41,704 nt of DNA from Nitrospirota bacterium (lineage in GTDB: Bacteria; Nitrospinota_A; UBA7883), in contig JAJRZK010000018.1 in the NCBI GenBank assembly GCA_024275315.1, positions 1 to 41,704 on the forward strand, given 5' to 3'. A program made the position numbers and the translations under genes. Each line of letters opens with the position of its first letter. Positions within the stretch are counted from its first letter, which is position 1. This document shows, one piece after another, positions 21,769 to 34,560 of the stretch. A model generated the notes under the pieces. The model did not search any database, was not told the origin of the DNA, and was given only the letters and a program-made list of their open reading frames with translations.

Positions 21769-22452
21769 CTAATCCAGGCCAGATTCATTCGGTTTGGATG
21801 ATTTGTTGATGTCTATCATTTCATTCATGCCGACATAGGTTGTGGAGATGATTCGGCTGACCTTGCTCATCTGCTTGATTATTTCTTTTATTCTCATGGA
21901 GGAATGATGGATATTCTCCGCTATTTCGTCTATATCTTTTTCGCTCAGATTCTCCCGGTCCATCAGCAGTTCCGCGTTTCCTATGACCCCCGTAAGTGGA
22001 TTGTTGATCTCGTGCTGAAGCGTCACGGACATTTTCAGAACCGCTTCAAGCTCCTTTCTGGAGGCCACTTCCTCCTCCAGCGCCTTGATGCGCAGATGGG
22101 CGCGCACCCTGGCCATCAACTCGTCGGGGTTGAAAGGTTTTGTTATATAGTCATTCGCGCCGGTGTTCATGCCCTGTATCATATCCGACGCCTCCCGTTT
22201 TGCGGTCAGCATGATGATGGGTATGTATTTCGTTGTCTTGTCCGACTTTAAGATCCTGCAAATCTCCATGCCTCCTATCCCGGGCATCATCAGGTCGAGG
22301 AGCAAGAGGTCTGGCGGGTTTTGTTCGATTTTTTTCAGCGCTTCGGCGCCGTCGCTCGCTATCTCGATGTTATAATCTTTATTTTCAGAAAGAGTCATCT
22401 TGACAAGCAAAGCGACGTTGGGGTCATCATCCACGACCAGGAGATTTGTCAT
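21769..22452 (-). CDS. Response regulator with receiver domain and a histidine-kinase dimerisation segment, no ATPase domain
   Basis: A 227 aa protein. Residues 1-120 form a REC domain with acidic Asp8-Asp9-Asp10, phospho-acceptor Asp53, Thr83 and Lys105 all present. After a short coiled coil, residues 140-205 resemble a HisKA dimerisation domain with LQHEINNPL (His147). The protein ends there, with no HATPase_c domain. It cannot autophosphorylate by itself, so it could act as a phosphotransfer hub with another kinase. The start is the ATG with GGTGAA just upstream; a TTG 15 bp earlier is less likely. It is divergent from the PilZ-like gene and lies upstream of the TRAP binding-protein genes on the same strand, which suggests it could regulate uptake. 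Confidence 0.88.
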   Translation of the reverse strand: MTNLLVVDDDPNVALLVKMTLSENKDYNIEIASDGAEALKKIEQNPPDLLLLDLMMPGIGGMEICRILKSDKTTKYIPIIMLTAKREASDMIQGMNTGANDYITKPFNPDELMARVRAHLRIKALEEEVASRKELEAVLKMSVTLQHEINNPLTGVIGNAELLMDRENLSEKDIDEIAENIHHSSMRIKEIIKQMSKVSRIISTTYVGMNEMIDINKSSKPNESGLD

Positions 22453-22542
22453 TTCACCAGCTTTCAATATTATGAATTTGTTTTATAAGATACTAACATT
22501 TTTCAATATTCTTTTTAAGGGGGATCGAACCAGAATCGCCTG

Positions 22543-23166
22543 ATGAACATACACAACGAACGCCGGCTGTATGACCGGATCAGTCTGAACGTGAAGATCA
22601 TTGGTTCACTTAAGGTGGGTGGCAAAGTTATTGATTTTACAGGTATCACCGTAACTCTTTCCGAAAGCGGGCTGTTGGCGAGCCTGACGGGGGAAGCGGC
22701 CTACCGCCTCCGGGAGATAGTAGAAAAGGAAGTGAATCTGGTTGGAGCCCCGGTGAATGTGAAAATTATCAGTTATGTCGAGGATAATATTATAATCGCC
22801 GCTAAAGTGGCGCGTGTGGTGACGGCTAAAACCGGGCTGGAGCTGGGGCTGGAGTTTGTTGACTTGTCCAAATCCGCAAAAAACGCTTTGGCCAAACTAC
22901 CGGACCTTGGTCAGGAAAATAACGTAAAGAGCGAGGAATATCGCTTCGACTCCATCGAGGAATTCATCAGCGAAGTGACCACGTTTACACTGCTGGTGGA
23001 CAAAACCGAGCGATTCTGGATAAAAAACGAACAGTTCATCTTTGCGGGAATGCACCAGTCCGACTCGGGCGAGGTGCATCCCGATTGCATCACCAGTGTT
23101 ACCAGGCCAAAACGGATTTACTGTCCGGATTGCAGAGATTACATCGATCCTATATCGTTACTTTAA
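22543..23166 (+). CDS. Degenerate PilZ-domain protein with C-terminal CxxC segment
   Basis: The 207 aa protein has an N-terminal domain (about 1-120) of PilZ type. It carries the RxxxR motif (Arg8 to Arg12), while the second motif reads TLSESG where [D/N]xSxxG is expected, so c-di-GMP binding is uncertain. The C-terminal half (about 120-207) is separate, ending with a CPDC motif near residue 197, possibly part of a small metal site. Similarity to PilZ is by motif and strand pattern only. GGGGG lies about 20 nt before the ATG, too far to be an ideal ribosome-binding site. Its last 9 bp overlap the end of the convergent BshC-like gene. Confidence 0.65.
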   Translation: MNIHNERRLYDRISLNVKIIGSLKVGGKVIDFTGITVTLSESGLLASLTGEAAYRLREIVEKEVNLVGAPVNVKIISYVEDNIIIAAKVARVVTAKTGLELGLEFVDLSKSAKNALAKLPDLGQENNVKSEEYRFDSIEEFISEVTTFTLLVDKTERFWIKNEQFIFAGMHQSDSGEVHPDCITSVTRPKRIYCPDCRDYIDPISLL

Positions 23167-24678
23167 CAAACCGGCCACCCTTTCAGGGTCGAACAGGAAA
23201 TAGGGATAGTCCCTCGCCCGGGCCGCCTGTTTTTCCTTTTCCTGTTCGCGCAGGATTTCAAGCTCCCTTTCCAGCTTCGACCGGAGCGGAGCGAGATGAG
23301 CGGCCATCTGTTCGTTCAGAGCGGATATTCTTCGCCCAAGAGCTTTTCGGTCGACTCCGGGTCGCTGGATCATCGCCACTATTCTGGTTTTTTCATCCAC
23401 CAACTTGCGGATGCGGCCATCCTCTCCGCCCGTTTTTTCCGGGTGATGCTCGATATCTCTCAACGCCTGTTTGACAGATTCCATCCTGTCTGCGGGATCG
23501 TGTACATCTATGTCCAGCAGGGCGGTGCAGGACACGCAGGCCCGTATCGGCGGTTCGATTCCATAGAATCGCTCGATGATGCGGTCGGTGACTGTGTCAT
23601 ATTTGGACCCGCCGACTCCATGGATAAAAAGGTCGCATATGAAAAGACGCACGTATATAGAGAGGGTGATAGCTTTCGGCCTGATATTGACCTGGCCCGA
23701 CGCAAGCTCCGCCATCGTCCATACGCCGCCTGTGGCGCTCTCCAGTACACCGTCTCCGGCGCTATCGCGCCGGACAAATAGCGGCTCTCTCGCTCCGGAG
23801 TTGATCACCCAGAAAGGAGTCTCTGTGGCGCCACGGCCCACCTCCAGGTCGGGAAACGGATTGGCAGGGTATCGAAGCTTATGATCTTTTCTATAACGGG
23901 CGAGTTGTCCGTTGTAAACATCCCTGAAATCGTCGATCCTCTCTATCAGGTCCCTCGCGTATCGCAAAAAAGGTTTTTGGACGCAAAGTCCTGAAACAGG
24001 GAATTCCATGCATCCCCCCAACAAGTAGCCGCACCATGCGCGACGCAGAACAACAGCCGACGACGTGTAATCGTCCATGGGCTGATGAATGTTTTCAATT
24101 CGCGCAAGAAAAGCGGACAAAGCCGCCGCCGGAGCGGCAAAGCCCGATTTCGACAATTTTTCATCCAAACGGGCAAGATTTTTTTTAAGCTGATCCATTG
24201 ATATGGCAGGAGCGGTTTCATACAACAGGTCACGTCCACCAGGAAAAAGTGACAGCTCCTTTTTCACCAGCCCTTTCTCCATAACCGGCGCGAAGATTGT
24301 CTCCGCCTTGAACTGATCCGAATCGACGCTGAAAAAGATCGCCGCCGCGCCAAGCTCCCTGGCCTGACGGGTCAGTGCGAAGCTTTTTATCGCGACACCC
24401 GGATGAAAGAATGTCGGCTGGTGGCCGGAGGCGATAATGGCCCCTCCGGAATCCAGGAAGCTCCCCGGGTTTTGCCCCAACTTTTTGGTGTAATTCGCCG
24501 CGTATTCAACAGCCGACCTGCGCGCCTGTCCGGCCAGGGTTTCAAACGGCAGGCCGTCTACCATAATATCGCGCCGCAAATTGCGGTTATGGTCTACAAG
24601 TCGGCCATATTCGGCCAGCTCCGGCAGTGTCAGGGTCTGGTCGTTTCGCGCAGGTATCTGGAGATGTTCGAAATTCAA
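23158..24678 (-). CDS. BshC-like conserved protein (putative cysteine-adding enzyme of a thiol pathway)
   Basis: A 506 aa protein that I place as a distant relative of BshC, the bacillithiol enzyme that adds cysteine to glucosaminyl-malate. Support: a GHQPTFFHPG motif (85-94) where BshC has GQQAG and a Gly-Pro loop, then an acidic FSVDSDQF segment (116-123) matching the BshC E-D-H-D strand. RLFICDLFIHGVGGSKYD (344-361) parallels the BshC segment ending in a glycine pair and Tyr. A charged coiled coil follows at about 440-490. Similar conserved hypotheticals occur, by memory, in planctomycetes. The start is TTG at 24678 with AAGG 8 nt upstream; no ATG is closer. An open frame continues upstream into the PIG-L gene without homology. 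The gene upstream in the same operon is a PIG-L deacetylase, which is also the BshB fold. Confidence 0.6.
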   Translation of the reverse strand: MNFEHLQIPARNDQTLTLPELAEYGRLVDHNRNLRRDIMVDGLPFETLAGQARRSAVEYAANYTKKLGQNPGSFLDSGGAIIASGHQPTFFHPGVAIKSFALTRQARELGAAAIFFSVDSDQFKAETIFAPVMEKGLVKKELSLFPGGRDLLYETAPAISMDQLKKNLARLDEKLSKSGFAAPAAALSAFLARIENIHQPMDDYTSSAVVLRRAWCGYLLGGCMEFPVSGLCVQKPFLRYARDLIERIDDFRDVYNGQLARYRKDHKLRYPANPFPDLEVGRGATETPFWVINSGAREPLFVRRDSAGDGVLESATGGVWTMAELASGQVNIRPKAITLSIYVRLFICDLFIHGVGGSKYDTVTDRIIERFYGIEPPIRACVSCTALLDIDVHDPADRMESVKQALRDIEHHPEKTGGEDGRIRKLVDEKTRIVAMIQRPGVDRKALGRRISALNEQMAAHLAPLRSKLERELEILREQEKEKQAARARDYPYFLFDPERVAGLLK

Positions 24679-24740
24679 CGGCTCGACCTTTGGTTGTGAG
24701 CGGATACTATACAGCAAGCGCGTTGCTGGGAAAATGGGAA

Positions 24741-25427
24741 TTATATCAGGATGTCCCGAATATCCTTCATGCCAACCTCCTCTTTTAGCATGACCGGCTC
24801 TCCATACTTTACACCTATCAGCTGGCCGTACCAGGCGCCTATGCTCCGCAACTTTTTCATAGCCACCTCCTCCCTGTCCGCGGCTTTGAACTGGGACTGA
24901 TAAACCCTGACGCACTCCAGTTTTTTTTCAAAAGTATCGGACACGTCCAGGATAAACGAGGGCTTGACATGGAGCCTCAGATGAGAAGCCAGGTAGTGAA
25001 AAACCTTTAACGGATACCATGGCTCACCCCTGATTTGCGATTTGGTGAGCTTCGCGTCGAACCGGGCCTTCTCCGCCAAAACGGATCCTTCCACATGGTC
25101 CGGATGAGCGTCCACACCCCATTGCAGGAAAATCCGCGCAGGCCGAAGTTCCCTGTAAACTTCTGCAACCTTGTGGCGGTTTTCGACCGAATCGGTCATC
25201 TCGCGGTTTGGGATGTCCAGGGTGACCCTTGTTTTCACACCCAGCACCCCAGCCGCTTTTGACGCTTCGGCCGCCCGGGTAGTCGGGTTTCCGAAAGGGG
25301 TGGGCTCTCCGTTTGTAAGGTCGAGCATGGCCACCTCGTAGCCCAGTTCCACCAGCTTGGCGACAGAGCCGCCAAAACCCATTTCTATATCGTCTGGATG
25401 AGCGCCGACGACCAGGACATCGACCAT
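24741..25427 (-). CDS. PIG-L family N-acetylglucosamine deacetylase, BshB1-like
   Basis: A 228 aa zinc-dependent deacetylase. It has the family signature AHPDD (residues 9-13, with the metal ligands) at the start and the second metal and catalytic site HPDH (near 117-120). The segment NGEPTPFGNPTTRAAEA resembles the BshB1 group, which removes acetyl from GlcNAc-malate in bacillithiol synthesis. Related groups act on mycothiol precursors, lipid-linked GlcNAc or antibiotics. The start ATG lies 43 bp inside the end of the upstream glycosyltransferase gene, so the two are translationally coupled. The BshC-like gene starts 62 bp after its stop. The cassette order supports modification of an amino sugar attached to something by the glycosyltransferase. 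Confidence 0.85.
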   Translation of the reverse strand: MVDVLVVGAHPDDIEMGFGGSVAKLVELGYEVAMLDLTNGEPTPFGNPTTRAAEASKAAGVLGVKTRVTLDIPNREMTDSVENRHKVAEVYRELRPARIFLQWGVDAHPDHVEGSVLAEKARFDAKLTKSQIRGEPWYPLKVFHYLASHLRLHVKPSFILDVSDTFEKKLECVRVYQSQFKAADREEVAMKKLRSIGAWYGQLIGVKYGEPVMLKEEVGMKDIRDILI

Positions 25428-26113
25428 TTGCGTATCTCTTTGTTCATGATACGTTTATAATATTCCAGCCGCCGCCGCGGGTCATCTAGCTCGCCGCCGA
25501 ATTTGCGGTCCAGGTTCTTGTATATCCTGGGGACAGGTATTTCCATGACAGACAGCTCAAAATGCTTCGCCTGAATCCAGAACTGGACCGGCTGGGCGTA
25601 ACCAGGCTCGTCCAGCTTCAGCCTGGACAGCGATGAGACACGATAGCATTTGAATCCGCAAAAAGAATCGGTCAGGTTGTATCCGGTGACCTGGTTTATT
25701 GCCTCCGTCATAATCATGTTTATTCTTTTCCGGTCGGGCGGGGTGGCGCCGCTGTCTGCGCTACGATCCAGGTAGCGGCTACCGGAGAGAACGTCATAAG
25801 AGCCGATACCAGCAAACATCTCCGGGATCATGCTTGGTTCATGTTGCTCGTCACAATCGATCGTGGTCAAAAGCTGGTAACCGTTGGCTACAGAATAATT
25901 GAACCCGTCTATAAGCGATTGGCCGTACCCGAGGTTTTTGCCGTGGCTGATGACTTTCAGGCCTTTTATGCTGGAGATTATGCGGTCTGAACCGTCGGTG
26001 GAGCCGTCGTCGATAACGACGATATCGCCCGAATGGAATTTTTTGATTTCGTGAAGAATCCGCTTCAGGGTTGGCGCCTCGTTGTAAACGGGAACCGCGA
26101 CAAGCCTTTTCAT
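25385..26113 (-). CDS. Family-2 glycosyltransferase (DPM1-like)
   Basis: A 242 aa soluble GT-A-fold glycosyltransferase. It starts with VAVPVYNEAPTL, followed by VVIDDGSTDGS (about 32-42), then GYGQSLIDGF and TTIDCDEQHEP with the metal-binding DxD-like Asp pair near residue 88-90. This is the pattern of dolichyl- or polyprenyl-phosphate sugar transferases. It has no transmembrane anchor. Known BshA enzymes are GT4 family, so this is not BshA. It may make a sugar donor or glycosylate a different acceptor. Its end overlaps the PIG-L gene by 43 bp. The ATG has AGGT about 11 nt upstream. No clear promoter is seen in the 137 bp before it. Confidence 0.88.
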   Translation of the reverse strand: MKRLVAVPVYNEAPTLKRILHEIKKFHSGDIVVIDDGSTDGSDRIISSIKGLKVISHGKNLGYGQSLIDGFNYSVANGYQLLTTIDCDEQHEPSMIPEMFAGIGSYDVLSGSRYLDRSADSGATPPDRKRINMIMTEAINQVTGYNLTDSFCGFKCYRVSSLSRLKLDEPGYAQPVQFWIQAKHFELSVMEIPVPRIYKNLDRKFGGELDDPRRRLEYYKRIMNKEIRKWSMSWSSALIQTI

Positions 26114-27252: not shown

Positions 27253-28629
27253 TTACGCGGATTCAGTTTTACCCTGGACCAGCTCGATATGCGGCCCAGG
27301 GACCCCCCCCTCCAGTTCAAGGCGGTTGGTGAGGTCCAGCAGGCTCATCGAGTCCGATCCGGATTCTATCGAACTTTTTATGGAGGTGAATATCTTGTCC
27401 AAAACGCTCCGGTCGGCGTCCAGAGGCTCCGGTGAGGCTTTGAGCATCTCACCGGCCAGGTGGAACAGCAGGTCGGCGATCATGATATTTCCCAGCGGCT
27501 TTTTAATCAGGAATTTTTCGTTCGATTCGTCTATGAACTCTATCAGGTCGAGTCTTTTGAGTTTTAAGAGGATATCGTTGTAAAACTCTCCGGTGATCTC
27601 CAGTTTTTTCTGTATTTCCCTGGGGTTGACAGACCCCTTGCCGCTGGAATAAGAGCGCGCCGCCTCCACCATCACGCGAAGCGTGTAATAGTTAAGGTAC
27701 CTGGTCCTGTCAAAACCCTCGTGCTTGGTCGAGTGTATTTCTTTCGGGTATTGGATCGCGTATGCGATAACCGACCCAAGTAGCACAATCAGCCAGGTGA
27801 CGTACAGCCAGAAAAGAAATATCGGTATTACCGCAAGAGCGCCGTATATAACCGTGTAGGAGGCCCAGTTGAGTATGTACCAGTCGAAAAACCACTTGGC
27901 CGCCTCGAACATGGTGCCCGCGATTATCGCCCCCCAGAGAGCGGGGACAAAGTGGACGTTGGTAAAGGGGATGAGTTTATATACCAGGAAGAAGGCGATC
28001 CAGGTGAGGATGTATGGGATTATCTTCAGGGTGAAGCTTTGCAGATAGGTATATTCCACCCAGTCCTCGCTGAGTACCAGCGCTTCTATTTGCGCGGTAA
28101 TAATGATGGAAACCGCTATCAGGATCGGGGTGAAGGTAAGTGAGCTCCAGTAGGCCACGAACTGGTTTATGACGGGCCTATGCTTGTCCACCTTCCATAT
28201 CATGTTGAACGCCGATTCGATAGTGCTCATGACCCATACGCTGAAAAGCACCAAAGCGACCACGCCGAACATGGACACCGACGCGGCGTTGACGGCGAAT
28301 GTGTCTATGTTCTGCTCGATAATGGCCGCCAGCTTCTCGTTGGGGAGAAGCCGGTTGAAAACGAACGTGAGCACGGTTGTTTTTGAAAAATCGAACGAAG
28401 TTAGAATCGACAGGGAAACCGCCGCAAGGGGAGCGAGAGCCAGAAGCGTTGTATAGGCCAGGGAGGCCGCGAAGGTGAAACAGTTGTCCCACCAGAACTT
28501 TTCCACTATCTCGTACACAAGCTTCAGCCGCCAGGCGATCCACCTGATGATAACCGATTTCTCCTCGAGGTCGGTCCTCAGGACGCTGACAATCCTGTCG
28601 TAGAGGCTGTCTTGAGCTTGCGTTTGCAT
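27253..28629 (-). CDS. YihY/BrkB-family inner membrane protein with C-terminal winged-helix-like domain
   Basis: A 458 aa protein. The membrane part (about 45-300) has six hydrophobic segments and YihY-family marks such as FTFAASLAYTTLLALAPLAA, SVWVMSTIESAFNMIWKV and FFLVYKLIPFTNVHF. A soluble C-terminal region (about 310-458) includes a predicted helix-turn-helix-like stretch, IQKKLEITGEFYNDILLKLK, resembling a winged helix. The short members lack this domain. YihY was once annotated as RNase BN, which was later shown to be ElaC, so no RNase activity should be assumed. The start lies 16 bp after tRNA-Cys on the same strand and has no evident ribosome-binding site. It may be transcribed with the tRNA. 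Confidence 0.85.
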   Translation of the reverse strand: MQTQAQDSLYDRIVSVLRTDLEEKSVIIRWIAWRLKLVYEIVEKFWWDNCFTFAASLAYTTLLALAPLAAVSLSILTSFDFSKTTVLTFVFNRLLPNEKLAAIIEQNIDTFAVNAASVSMFGVVALVLFSVWVMSTIESAFNMIWKVDKHRPVINQFVAYWSSLTFTPILIAVSIIITAQIEALVLSEDWVEYTYLQSFTLKIIPYILTWIAFFLVYKLIPFTNVHFVPALWGAIIAGTMFEAAKWFFDWYILNWASYTVIYGALAVIPIFLFWLYVTWLIVLLGSVIAYAIQYPKEIHSTKHEGFDRTRYLNYYTLRVMVEAARSYSSGKGSVNPREIQKKLEITGEFYNDILLKLKRLDLIEFIDESNEKFLIKKPLGNIMIADLLFHLAGEMLKASPEPLDADRSVLDKIFTSIKSSIESGSDSMSLLDLTNRLELEGGVPGPHIELVQGKTESA

Positions 28630-31980: not shown

Positions 31981-33270
31981 ATGGACGACTGGTTGATTTT
32001 CCGTCTGGTGTTGCTGGTCCTGCTTTTGGGAGGCTCCGCGTTTTTCGCGGGGTGCGATATCGCCTTTTTTTCGCTGACCAGCGCGGAAGTGGTTCGCCTG
32101 AAAGCAAACCACGGCAAGCTCGGCGCCAGGGTTTCGGCGTTGCTGGCCTATCCCCAGCGGTTGCTCGTCACCATTTATGTCGGCAACGAGCTTATCAACG
32201 TCGCCATATCCGCCATCGCCACGGTCGTTGCGTTCGATTTGTTCTCGGACATGGGTGTTGCCCTGTTTTTGGGCGCCGGTGTCCTTTTGTTGCTGGCCCT
32301 GGGCGAGATCACGCCCAAAGCTTTCGCGCACAGCAACAACGAAAAGTGGGCGCTTGCGGCCTCTTATCCCCTTACCATTTTCATGTACGCCATATATCCG
32401 GCGCAGGTTGTGGTGACAGAGATAACGAACTGGCTGGCCAGGGTGTTTGGCGGTGAAACGGACACCGAAGCGACGCTGGTTACAGAGGAGGAGTTGAAGA
32501 CCCTTATGGATGACAGCGCCGACGAGGGGATCATCGGTGAGGAGGAAAAAGAGATGATCCGGGGCGTGTTCGATCTTGGCGATGTCACCGTCTCCGAGAT
32601 CATGACACCCAGAACGGACATTCTGGCGCTGGAGTTGGGCATCGATCTTGTCGAGGCGTGGGACAAAATGGCGTTTTCATATTTTGCCAGGGCTCCTGTG
32701 TATGACGGGACCATAGACAACGTAGCCGGTGTGCTTTTCAAAAAGGACCTGCTCAAGCTCGACTATCCGCCCCCGAAGGATATGACGTTAAAGGACATAA
32801 TAAAAGAGCCGTTCATAGTCCCCGAGTCCCTGATGATCAAGGAGCTGTTGCGCGAGTTCAAGAAACGAAAGTCGCACATGGCGGTGGTCATGGATGAATA
32901 TGGCGGAGTCCAGGGGGTGGTCACGCTTGACGACATTCTAGAAGAGCTTGTGGGCGAATCTGCGGGTCAGCAACGCAACGGAGACGAGATAACGAAGCTG
33001 GGTGGGGGCTGTTTCCGGATCAAGGCGTCGCTTTCTCTTGAGAATTTCAACAATGAATTCAGCGCGGATTTCAAACAGGGCGAAATCGAAACTATCGGCG
33101 GGCTGGTGTTCCATCTTTTTGGCAAAGCGCCCAAGTGGGGCGAGTCGATAGTGAGTGGCGGTTTCCAGTTTACCGTGGAAAAGGTCAAAGGCCACAGGGT
33201 GACCGAGCTTCGGGTAAGAAACCTCTCGTCATCCCCGGGAAACTGTTCGAACAAAGGGGAGGCTGGATAA
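31981..33270 (+). CDS. CNNM/CorC-family transporter-like protein (DUF21-CBS-CorC), copy 1
   Basis: A 429 aa membrane protein. It has an N-terminal DUF21 region with about three to four transmembrane helices (1-130; SAFFAGCDIAFFSL, then LGEITPKAFA). Two CBS domains follow (about 195-330; VSEIMTPRTDI and HMAVVMDEYGGVQGVVTLDDILEELVGE) and then a C-terminal CorC/HlyC domain (about 345-425). Relatives take part in magnesium or cobalt efflux and are often annotated as hemolysins without direct evidence. The CBS pair probably binds adenine nucleotides. The start ATG has GGA five bases upstream. The next gene begins directly at the base after its stop. Confidence 0.9.
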   Translation: MDDWLIFRLVLLVLLLGGSAFFAGCDIAFFSLTSAEVVRLKANHGKLGARVSALLAYPQRLLVTIYVGNELINVAISAIATVVAFDLFSDMGVALFLGAGVLLLLALGEITPKAFAHSNNEKWALAASYPLTIFMYAIYPAQVVVTEITNWLARVFGGETDTEATLVTEEELKTLMDDSADEGIIGEEEKEMIRGVFDLGDVTVSEIMTPRTDILALELGIDLVEAWDKMAFSYFARAPVYDGTIDNVAGVLFKKDLLKLDYPPPKDMTLKDIIKEPFIVPESLMIKELLREFKKRKSHMAVVMDEYGGVQGVVTLDDILEELVGESAGQQRNGDEITKLGGGCFRIKASLSLENFNNEFSADFKQGEIETIGGLVFHLFGKAPKWGESIVSGGFQFTVEKVKGHRVTELRVRNLSSSPGNCSNKGEAG

Positions 33271-34560
33271 TTGGACCTTTCGTCTACGATTGTTCTCGTG
33301 GTTTTTTTGTTGCTCGCGGAAGGCTTTTTCTCTGGCTCCGAGCTGGCTATTGTGTCCATAAGCAGGATAAAGCTTAAACACCTGGGAGAAAACGGCGTCA
33401 AATACGCCCTGACTCTGGAAAAACTTTTGCAACATCCGGAGCGCGTGTTCGGAGCCACCTCCGTCGGCACCAACCTGTGCGTGTTCGCCGCGTCTGCGGT
33501 CGTTACCGCCCATATGGTCAATGCCATAGGCGACGGGGCGGATTTCTATTCATTTCTAATTATGGGACCGCTGACGCTTATCCTGGGCGAGATCGTGCCG
33601 AAGATGATATTCCGCAACAACACCGAAGCCGTAGTCCCGTATATCACAAGGCCGTTGTCTTTTTCCCTGTGGCTGTTCAGGCCGATTCTCATTGTCACAA
33701 CAGCCATATCCCGCATCGTGCTCAAGTTCGTCCTGCGCCAGACGGAAATACCGGCCAGCATAATATCGCGGGAGGAGATACTTCTGCTTACAAAGATGAG
33801 CGAAAAAAAGCTGGAGCTCGATCATGACGAGAAAAAGATGATCCACCGTATTTTCGAGTTTAAAACCAGCGATGTGGAGTCCGCCATGCAGCCATTGATC
33901 AACATCGTGGCTGTGTCCAGCAATTCGACGCTGGAACAGGCCAGGGAGCGGATAGCGGAAACCGGATATTCACGCCTGCCGGTTTTCCACGAGAGGATAT
34001 ACAACATCGTGGGGATAATAAGCGCGTTTGATATCATGCGCCAGGGCGACCTGACAAACCCCGTGTCCAAGGTCATGAGCCCGGCCTACTATGTGCCGAC
34101 CACGAAGAAAAATTCTCAGTTGCTAAAAGAGATGCAGGACACCGGGGTAGCCATGTCCATCGTGGTGGACGAGTATGGCGCGGCGACCGGGCTTGTGACT
34201 CTCGAGGATTTGCTGGAGGAGATCGTCGGCGAGATAGAGGACGAGTATGACAAACCGGTTAAATCGTATGAGTCGCTAGGTGGTGGCAAATACATAATCG
34301 ACGCGGCGATGGAGATCGATGGTATCAACGATGAGCTTGGCCTCGACCTGCCCACCGGCGATTATGAGACGCTTGGCGGGTTTTTGAATGAATCGCTGGA
34401 GCGCATCCCCAGAAAGAGAGAGAGGCTGGGCATTGGAAAATACCTGATAACAATCCTCGACGCCACAGCCAGGAAGGTCAAGTCTGTCGAGCTTATCGAC
34501 CTGGAGCGCAAGGGAGACGAAACAAAACCGGCGCCTGAAAACGGGGGATCATCATCGTAA
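33271..34560 (+). CDS. CNNM/CorC-family transporter-like protein (DUF21-CBS-CorC), copy 2
   Basis: A second member with the same 429 aa length and domain order: DUF21 (1-140; SGSELAIVSISR, LGEIVPKMIF), CBS pair (about 195-330; VESAMQPLINI and MSIVVDEYGAATGLVTLEDLLEEIVGE) and CorC domain (about 345-410). The start is TTG immediately after the TAA of copy 1, with GGAGG 8 nt upstream, so the two are co-translated. Tandem paralogues of this family are common and may form heteromers. The acidic IEDEYD segment after the second CBS is typical. Confidence 0.9.
   Translation: MDLSSTIVLVVFLLLAEGFFSGSELAIVSISRIKLKHLGENGVKYALTLEKLLQHPERVFGATSVGTNLCVFAASAVVTAHMVNAIGDGADFYSFLIMGPLTLILGEIVPKMIFRNNTEAVVPYITRPLSFSLWLFRPILIVTTAISRIVLKFVLRQTEIPASIISREEILLLTKMSEKKLELDHDEKKMIHRIFEFKTSDVESAMQPLINIVAVSSNSTLEQARERIAETGYSRLPVFHERIYNIVGIISAFDIMRQGDLTNPVSKVMSPAYYVPTTKKNSQLLKEMQDTGVAMSIVVDEYGAATGLVTLEDLLEEIVGEIEDEYDKPVKSYESLGGGKYIIDAAMEIDGINDELGLDLPTGDYETLGGFLNESLERIPRKRERLGIGKYLITILDATARKVKSVELIDLERKGDETKPAPENGGSSS

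Follow-up and report, generated by a model that had tools for sequence, protein, structure and literature searches.

Bacillithiol and mycothiol are made by pathways with a shared three-step logic. In the bacillithiol pathway, a family 4 glycosyltransferase (GT4), BshA, is followed by the deacetylase BshB and by BshC, the presumed last enzyme, while in the mycothiol pathway a transferase (MshA), an LmbE deacetylase (MshB), and an ATP-dependent cysteine ligase of the CysRS type (MshC) act in turn. A pairing that is alike in part occurs in ArnC/ArnD and other polyprenyl-phosphate sugar pairs, in which a DPM1-type family 2 glycosyltransferase (GT2) works ahead of a deacylase that acts on the sugar amine; ArnD is not a PIG-L protein. 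Many bacterial phyla have thiols that await identification, and this is the context in which the three-gene cassette described here has its value. The cassette lies on the minus strand of contig JAJRZK010000018.1 (assembly GCA_024275315.1, Nitrospirota bacterium, placed in Nitrospinota_A by GTDB), all 41,704 nucleotides of which were analyzed and are referred to as the window. It encodes, in order, a DPM1/PpgS/ArnC-like GT2 of 242 aa (25385..26113), a PIG-L/LmbE deacetylase of 228 aa (24741..25427) that is of the BshB1 type with altered residues at the aglycone site, and a protein of 506 aa (23158..24678), called P506 below, that is a distant member of the BshC superfamily. We lean slightly toward the view that these genes form a variant sugar-thiol pathway parallel to bacillithiol and mycothiol synthesis, running from an N-acetylhexosamine conjugate (HexNAc-X) through the free amine (HexN-X) to Cys-HexN-X. 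No published description of the cassette was found in the open-licence literature searched.

Comparison of P506 with BshC

Sequence searches with P506 did not reach BshC. A Pfam/NCBIfam scan of P506 and 39 relatives from several phyla returned no shared family and only single weak chance matches, none of these 40 members matched the BshC family PF10079 at E 0.01, and searches of the PDB sequences with phmmer and hmmsearch found no BshC, so that only profile-profile and fold comparisons reveal the relationship. With an input alignment of 18 Nitrospinota sequences, AlphaFold2 gave a model of P506 with a pLDDT of 90.5 and a pTM of 0.86 that has helices at its C-terminus (residues 421-486), while a single-sequence run reached a pLDDT of only 40. 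The best Foldseek match of this model in the PDB was Bacillus subtilis BshC, entry 4wbd, over the full length (E 8.2e-16, 549 columns). Class I tRNA synthetases come next, with E about 1e-3, which leaves 4wbd as the only match far below E 1e-3. Agreement with 4wbd by TM-score is moderate (0.51/0.48, rmsd 10.6), which would fit a rotation of the domains relative to each other.

Profile-profile alignment agrees with the fold. Using hhalign, a P506 profile built from 96 sequences and a BshC profile built from 24 aligned over 430 collinear columns with a score of 69.6 (Prob 94, E 1.3e-7), a result reproduced from another pair of alignments (Prob 90, E 1.5e-6). A reversed BshC decoy scored 23, the GT2 and PIG-L controls gave E 0.3-0.6, and 58 of the 60 column-shuffle controls scored 25.4 or less. 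The other two column shuffles, at 133 and 140, are an edge artefact, one spanning 4 columns and both ending at the last template column; block-shuffle controls included one outlier, at 141.5. Eleven positions spanning residues 85 to 489 are identical and conserved in both families, namely G85, Q87, K98, D119, D121, R297, P334, G354, Y360, P377, and R489. The likeness therein extends to the positions of the G-x-Q loop, a lysine, D-x-D, an arginine, G-x5-Y, and a C-terminal arginine, as well as to the C-terminal helical coiled region of BshC. The sequence-only reading, made earlier from the letters of the window, had called the 506 aa protein BshC-like, which proved correct at the level of fold and superfamily by Foldseek, hhalign, and the 11 residues, and the landmarks it had listed are exact (GHQPTFFHPG at 85-94, FSVDSDQF at 116-123, FIHGVGGSKY at 351-360, and the C-terminal helices).

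Nevertheless, P506 differs from BshC in ways that go beyond its failure to match PF10079. Identity in the profile alignment is about 10%, the motif GHQPxxxHPG stands where BshC has GQQxGLxxGP, HGxGG-K-YD stands where BshC has GPGE-Y, and P506 has invariants of its own (N256, R263, P274, W290, H353, and D361). As such, we regard P506 as a distant homologue of BshC that constitutes a separate family. This second BshC family shows which residues survive divergence (K98, D119, D121, R297, Y360, and R489), and this bears on the unresolved mechanism of BshC. Weak matches to P506 (E about 1e-7 to 1e-18) with open frames of 340-507 aa were also seen in 12 genomes of the panels searched and are perhaps a third BshC-like branch.

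The deacetylase and the glycosyltransferase

The PIG-L protein, which the sequence-only reading had likened to BshB1, scores 198 bits against the BshB1 equivalog TIGR04001 (cut-off 182.5) and is the sole BshB1-type copy in its genome. Against the MshB equivalog it reaches 30.8 bits, far below the cut-off of 224.35, and, unlike in the mycothiol pathway, there is no evidence of inositol. The metal and catalytic residues H10, D12, D13, H108, D110, and H111 are all present. In BshB, Arg53 and Arg109 were proposed by docking to contact GlcNAc-malate (PMC4101496). The equivalent of Arg53 is retained as R51, while that of Arg109 is A107, and at the latter position every one of the 41 cassette-type PIG-L proteins compared has Ala, Ser, Thr, or Asp, as against Arg in 16 of 19 canonical BshB1s. 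Three further positions change along with it: D becomes N at 74, G becomes K at 126, and R gives way to Y or others at 138. The loss of Arg109, together with the exchange of a GT4 for a GT2, is a pointer to an aglycone other than malate, and judging from these residues X is probably not malate.

The GT2 assignment is clear at the family level (PF00535, E 1.8e-23), and the DPM1 type that had been suggested for it fits its best PDB match, the dolichol-phosphate mannose synthase DPMS (5mlz, 8e-19). Among NCBIfam models, the polyprenyl-phospho-GalNAc synthase PpgS scores highest, but its 72 bits fall well short of the cut-off of 370. In the 20 genomes compared, D86, C87, D88, Q90, and H91 of the DCDEQH motif are invariant, the E being the exception, and so are R113, R128, and N132. 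The last three correspond to Arg117, Arg131, and Ser135 of PfDPMS, which are ligands of the acceptor phosphate of dolichol phosphate (Dol-P; PMC5526996), with asparagine in place of the serine. Since R113 and R128 are invariant, a phosphate-bearing acceptor fits, be it a small molecule or a polyprenyl phosphate. A hydropathy scan found no membrane segment in GT2, PIG-L, or P506; the maximum 19-residue value of 0.58 in GT2 indicates no membrane segment of its own, though a separate anchor protein could serve.

Conservation of the cassette

The tight same-strand arrangement noted in the sequence-only reading is exact. GT2 and PIG-L overlap by 43 bp (25385..25427), which probably reflects translational coupling, and a gap of 62 bp separates PIG-L from the TTG start of P506. 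That start is uncertain, as an in-frame TTG at 24717 offers an alternative in a frame that stays open to 24927, and in most relatives P506 starts within PIG-L or at most about 40 bp from it. Homologues of all three genes, 28-65% identical to them, occur in the same order in 19 further genomes of Nitrospinota, and the three are therefore real coding genes. In these 19 genomes the GT2/PIG-L overlap is 43 bp in 13, 49 bp in 4, and 1 and 4 bp in the remaining two. Of the 24 Nitrospinota genomes searched, the one studied here included, 20 carry P506, and all 20 have the order GT2-PIG-L-P506. The four genomes with no P506 match are fragmented (410-600 contigs); a BshB1-type PIG-L is encoded on a contig in two of the four.

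A search across GTDB representatives turned up at least 479 loci encoding P506 relatives, and the neighborhood counts given here refer to the best 80. Beyond Nitrospinota, these belong to Coriobacteriia and other Actinomycetota, Bacillota, Atribacterota, Armatimonadota, ANGP1, and Planctomycetota, the last including Brocadia, Kuenenia, and Scalindua. All three genes are together in 37 loci, 25 of them outside Nitrospinota, while 28 loci, mostly from Planctomycetes, have GT2 and P506 only, and 15 have neither partner, some of these being interrupted by contig ends. GT2 thus adjoins P506 in 65 of the 80. Where PIG-L is not beside P506, a cassette-type PIG-L is encoded elsewhere in 9 of 10 genomes (217-319 bits), and a further conserved gene beside GT2-P506 was sought in Planctomycetes and not found. 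In Lacipirellula limnantheis I41, GT2-P506 and a cassette-type PIG-L lie at separate loci. An independent panel of 385 genomes added 11 P506 carriers, with GT2 alongside in 8 of the best 9. GT2, PIG-L, and P506 are inherited as a unit. Two outcomes that had been named as counting against the sequence-only reading, the lack of a BshC fold and homologues of P506 lying mostly away from PIG-L genes, did not occur, because the BshC fold was found and the cassette is conserved, albeit with PIG-L not adjacent in Planctomycetes.

Distribution of P506 and canonical thiol genes

Profile searches of the genome carrying the cassette found no PF10079 BshC, and neither BshA (TIGR03999) nor the glutathione synthetase GshB was found over its cut-off, the best BshA-like GT4 scoring 139.7 bits as compared to the required 273.7. 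In a panel of 145 genomes, BshC was found in 24, BshA in 23, and P506 in 23, with no genome having P506 together with either of the other two. A second panel comprised 294 genomes from the phylum of one genome whose closest P506 relatives are from Schlesneria, and which was on that basis judged a planctomycete; here P506 occurs in 54 genomes, canonical BshC in 150, and both in none. Among the 54 P506 matches are 11 weak, divergent ones, and the overlap is still zero without them. The probability of such exclusion arising by chance would be 3e-20 if the 294 genomes were independent, which they are not, and about 1e-4 if families were independent, assuming 91 families in the panel. In the panels searched, the P506 unit does not coexist with canonical BshC, and this mutual exclusion suggests the same physiological role for the two.

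According to a survey from 2018, the Planctomycetes are among the lineages for which no low-molecular-weight thiol had been either documented or predicted (PMC6282198). Contrary to that statement, PF10079 BshC exceeds its cut-off in the 150 planctomycete-phylum genomes counted above, and many of them may therefore make bacillithiol.

Proposed pathway and alternatives

In the pathway that we slightly favor, the soluble GT2 would take the place of the GT4 BshA and move an N-acetylhexosamine from a UDP-sugar, probably GlcNAc from UDP-GlcNAc, onto the acceptor X, with inversion of the anomeric center, as expected of a GT2. The BshB1-type PIG-L would then remove the acetyl group from HexNAc-X, with a phosphate-bearing X fitting the GT2 site, and in an ATP-dependent ligation P506 would couple the freed amine to an amino acid, of which cysteine is the likeliest. 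By analogy with BshC, the cysteine step is a plausible role for P506, and the product may act as a redox thiol. The three-step logic, the BshB1-type deacetylase, and the BshC fold of the presumed last enzyme are as in the bacillithiol pathway, whereas the GT2, the deacetylase lacking Arg109, the separate P506 family, and the arrangement as one overlapping cassette apart from canonical BshC are not. The broader claim, that this is a further sugar thiol beside mycothiol and bacillithiol (including N-methyl-bacillithiol), we would place just short of even odds. In this view, a GT2 acting with a BshB1-like deacetylase and a member of a second BshC family would make a thiol that replaces bacillithiol in Nitrospinota, in Planctomycetes (anammox bacteria among them), and in Coriobacteriia, Atribacterota, and other lineages. 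If true, Nitrospinota, Planctomycetes including anammox bacteria, and several other phyla carry a protective thiol that has so far escaped measurement, and for Nitrospinota, these Planctomycetes, and Coriobacteriia the cassette provides a specific and testable prediction from gene to metabolite.

Several points weigh against a sugar-thiol pathway. No thiol-reductase partner gene is linked to the cassette, and the nearest solved relatives of its GT2, DPMS and ArnC, use polyprenyl phosphates. Some BshC invariants are absent from P506 (BshC Q94 corresponds to H86 and E347 to G357), and the exclusion of BshC runs partly along clade lines, with P506 in 12 planctomycete families, BshC in 46, and none in common. 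The contact between Arg109 and GlcNAc-malate is docking evidence only (PMC4101496). Lastly, as of 2015, BshC had yet to be shown active in vitro, even in bacillithiol synthesis (PMC4360819), and for this reason the function of P506 cannot be read from its fold.

Because of its type, the GT2 also keeps in view an envelope route, in which it would make polyprenyl-phosphate-HexNAc, PIG-L would deacetylate it, and P506 would aminoacylate it with cysteine or another amino acid, so that a surface polymer is decorated in a manner comparable to ArnC/ArnD. We consider this route unlikely. DPMS, ArnC, and PpgS as nearest relatives and two invariant ligands of the Dol-P phosphate out of three speak for it, whereas the third ligand is replaced by Asn132, all three proteins lack a membrane segment, and no consistent flippase, GT-C, or polymer neighbor was seen in the 80 loci, whose clusters were defined by sequence only. 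Moreover, the route leaves the exclusion of the cytosolic BshC unexplained. In ArnC/ArnD, the BshC-like third enzyme has no counterpart. Slightly more doubtful still is a soluble conjugate in which the amino acid is not cysteine, serving as an osmolyte, cofactor, or signalling molecule, which would be made by the same steps and contain no thiol. The fold of P506, with matches to BshC and then to class I synthetases, predicts handling of an amino acid or a nucleotide and does not fix the amino acid, and several BshC invariants differ; against this, the mutual exclusion with BshC suggests a shared role, and the genome itself has no BshA, PF10079 BshC, or GshB over cut-off.

Ordinary bacillithiol, made with an unrecognized BshA or by a GT2 acting on malate, is very improbable. 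It would agree with a PIG-L over the BshB1 cut-off and a P506 with the BshC fold, but the best BshA-like GT4 falls well short of the cut-off, none of the 23 P506 genomes in the 145-genome panel has BshA over it, Arg109 is lost throughout the cassette-type PIG-L proteins, and P506 is distinct from PF10079. With BshA missing over cut-off, we rejected bacillithiol as the product, and the idea in the sequence-only reading that the cassette finishes bacillithiol with BshA elsewhere is not supported. The other idea offered there, a cysteinyl amino sugar other than bacillithiol, is favored in its non-bacillithiol part by the loss of Arg109 and the use of a GT2, while its cysteinyl part stays a likely guess, leaving that interpretation partly supported overall.

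Neighboring genes

Sigma-70-like promoters were at chance level, and terminator-like sites were only slightly above the shuffle mean. CheX, MarR, and BrkB genes lie upstream of the cassette on its own strand and are kept in several related genomes; the BrkB/YihY-type membrane protein (27253-28629, minus strand) has a C-terminal extension weakly like Rrf2 (E 0.0016). On the other side, a PilZ-domain gene with a C-terminal CPDC motif (22543-23166, plus strand) is convergent with P506, their 3' ends overlapping by 9 bp, and it adjoins the cassette in several Nitrospinota relatives as well. Beyond it, a minus-strand gene of 232 aa (21769-22467), also kept beside the cassette in several relatives, encodes a response-regulator receiver domain with a HisKA match behind it and no ATPase domain. 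Farther away, two directly abutting plus-strand ORFs of 429 aa each (31981-33270 and 33271-34560) lie downstream of two M16 peptidase genes.

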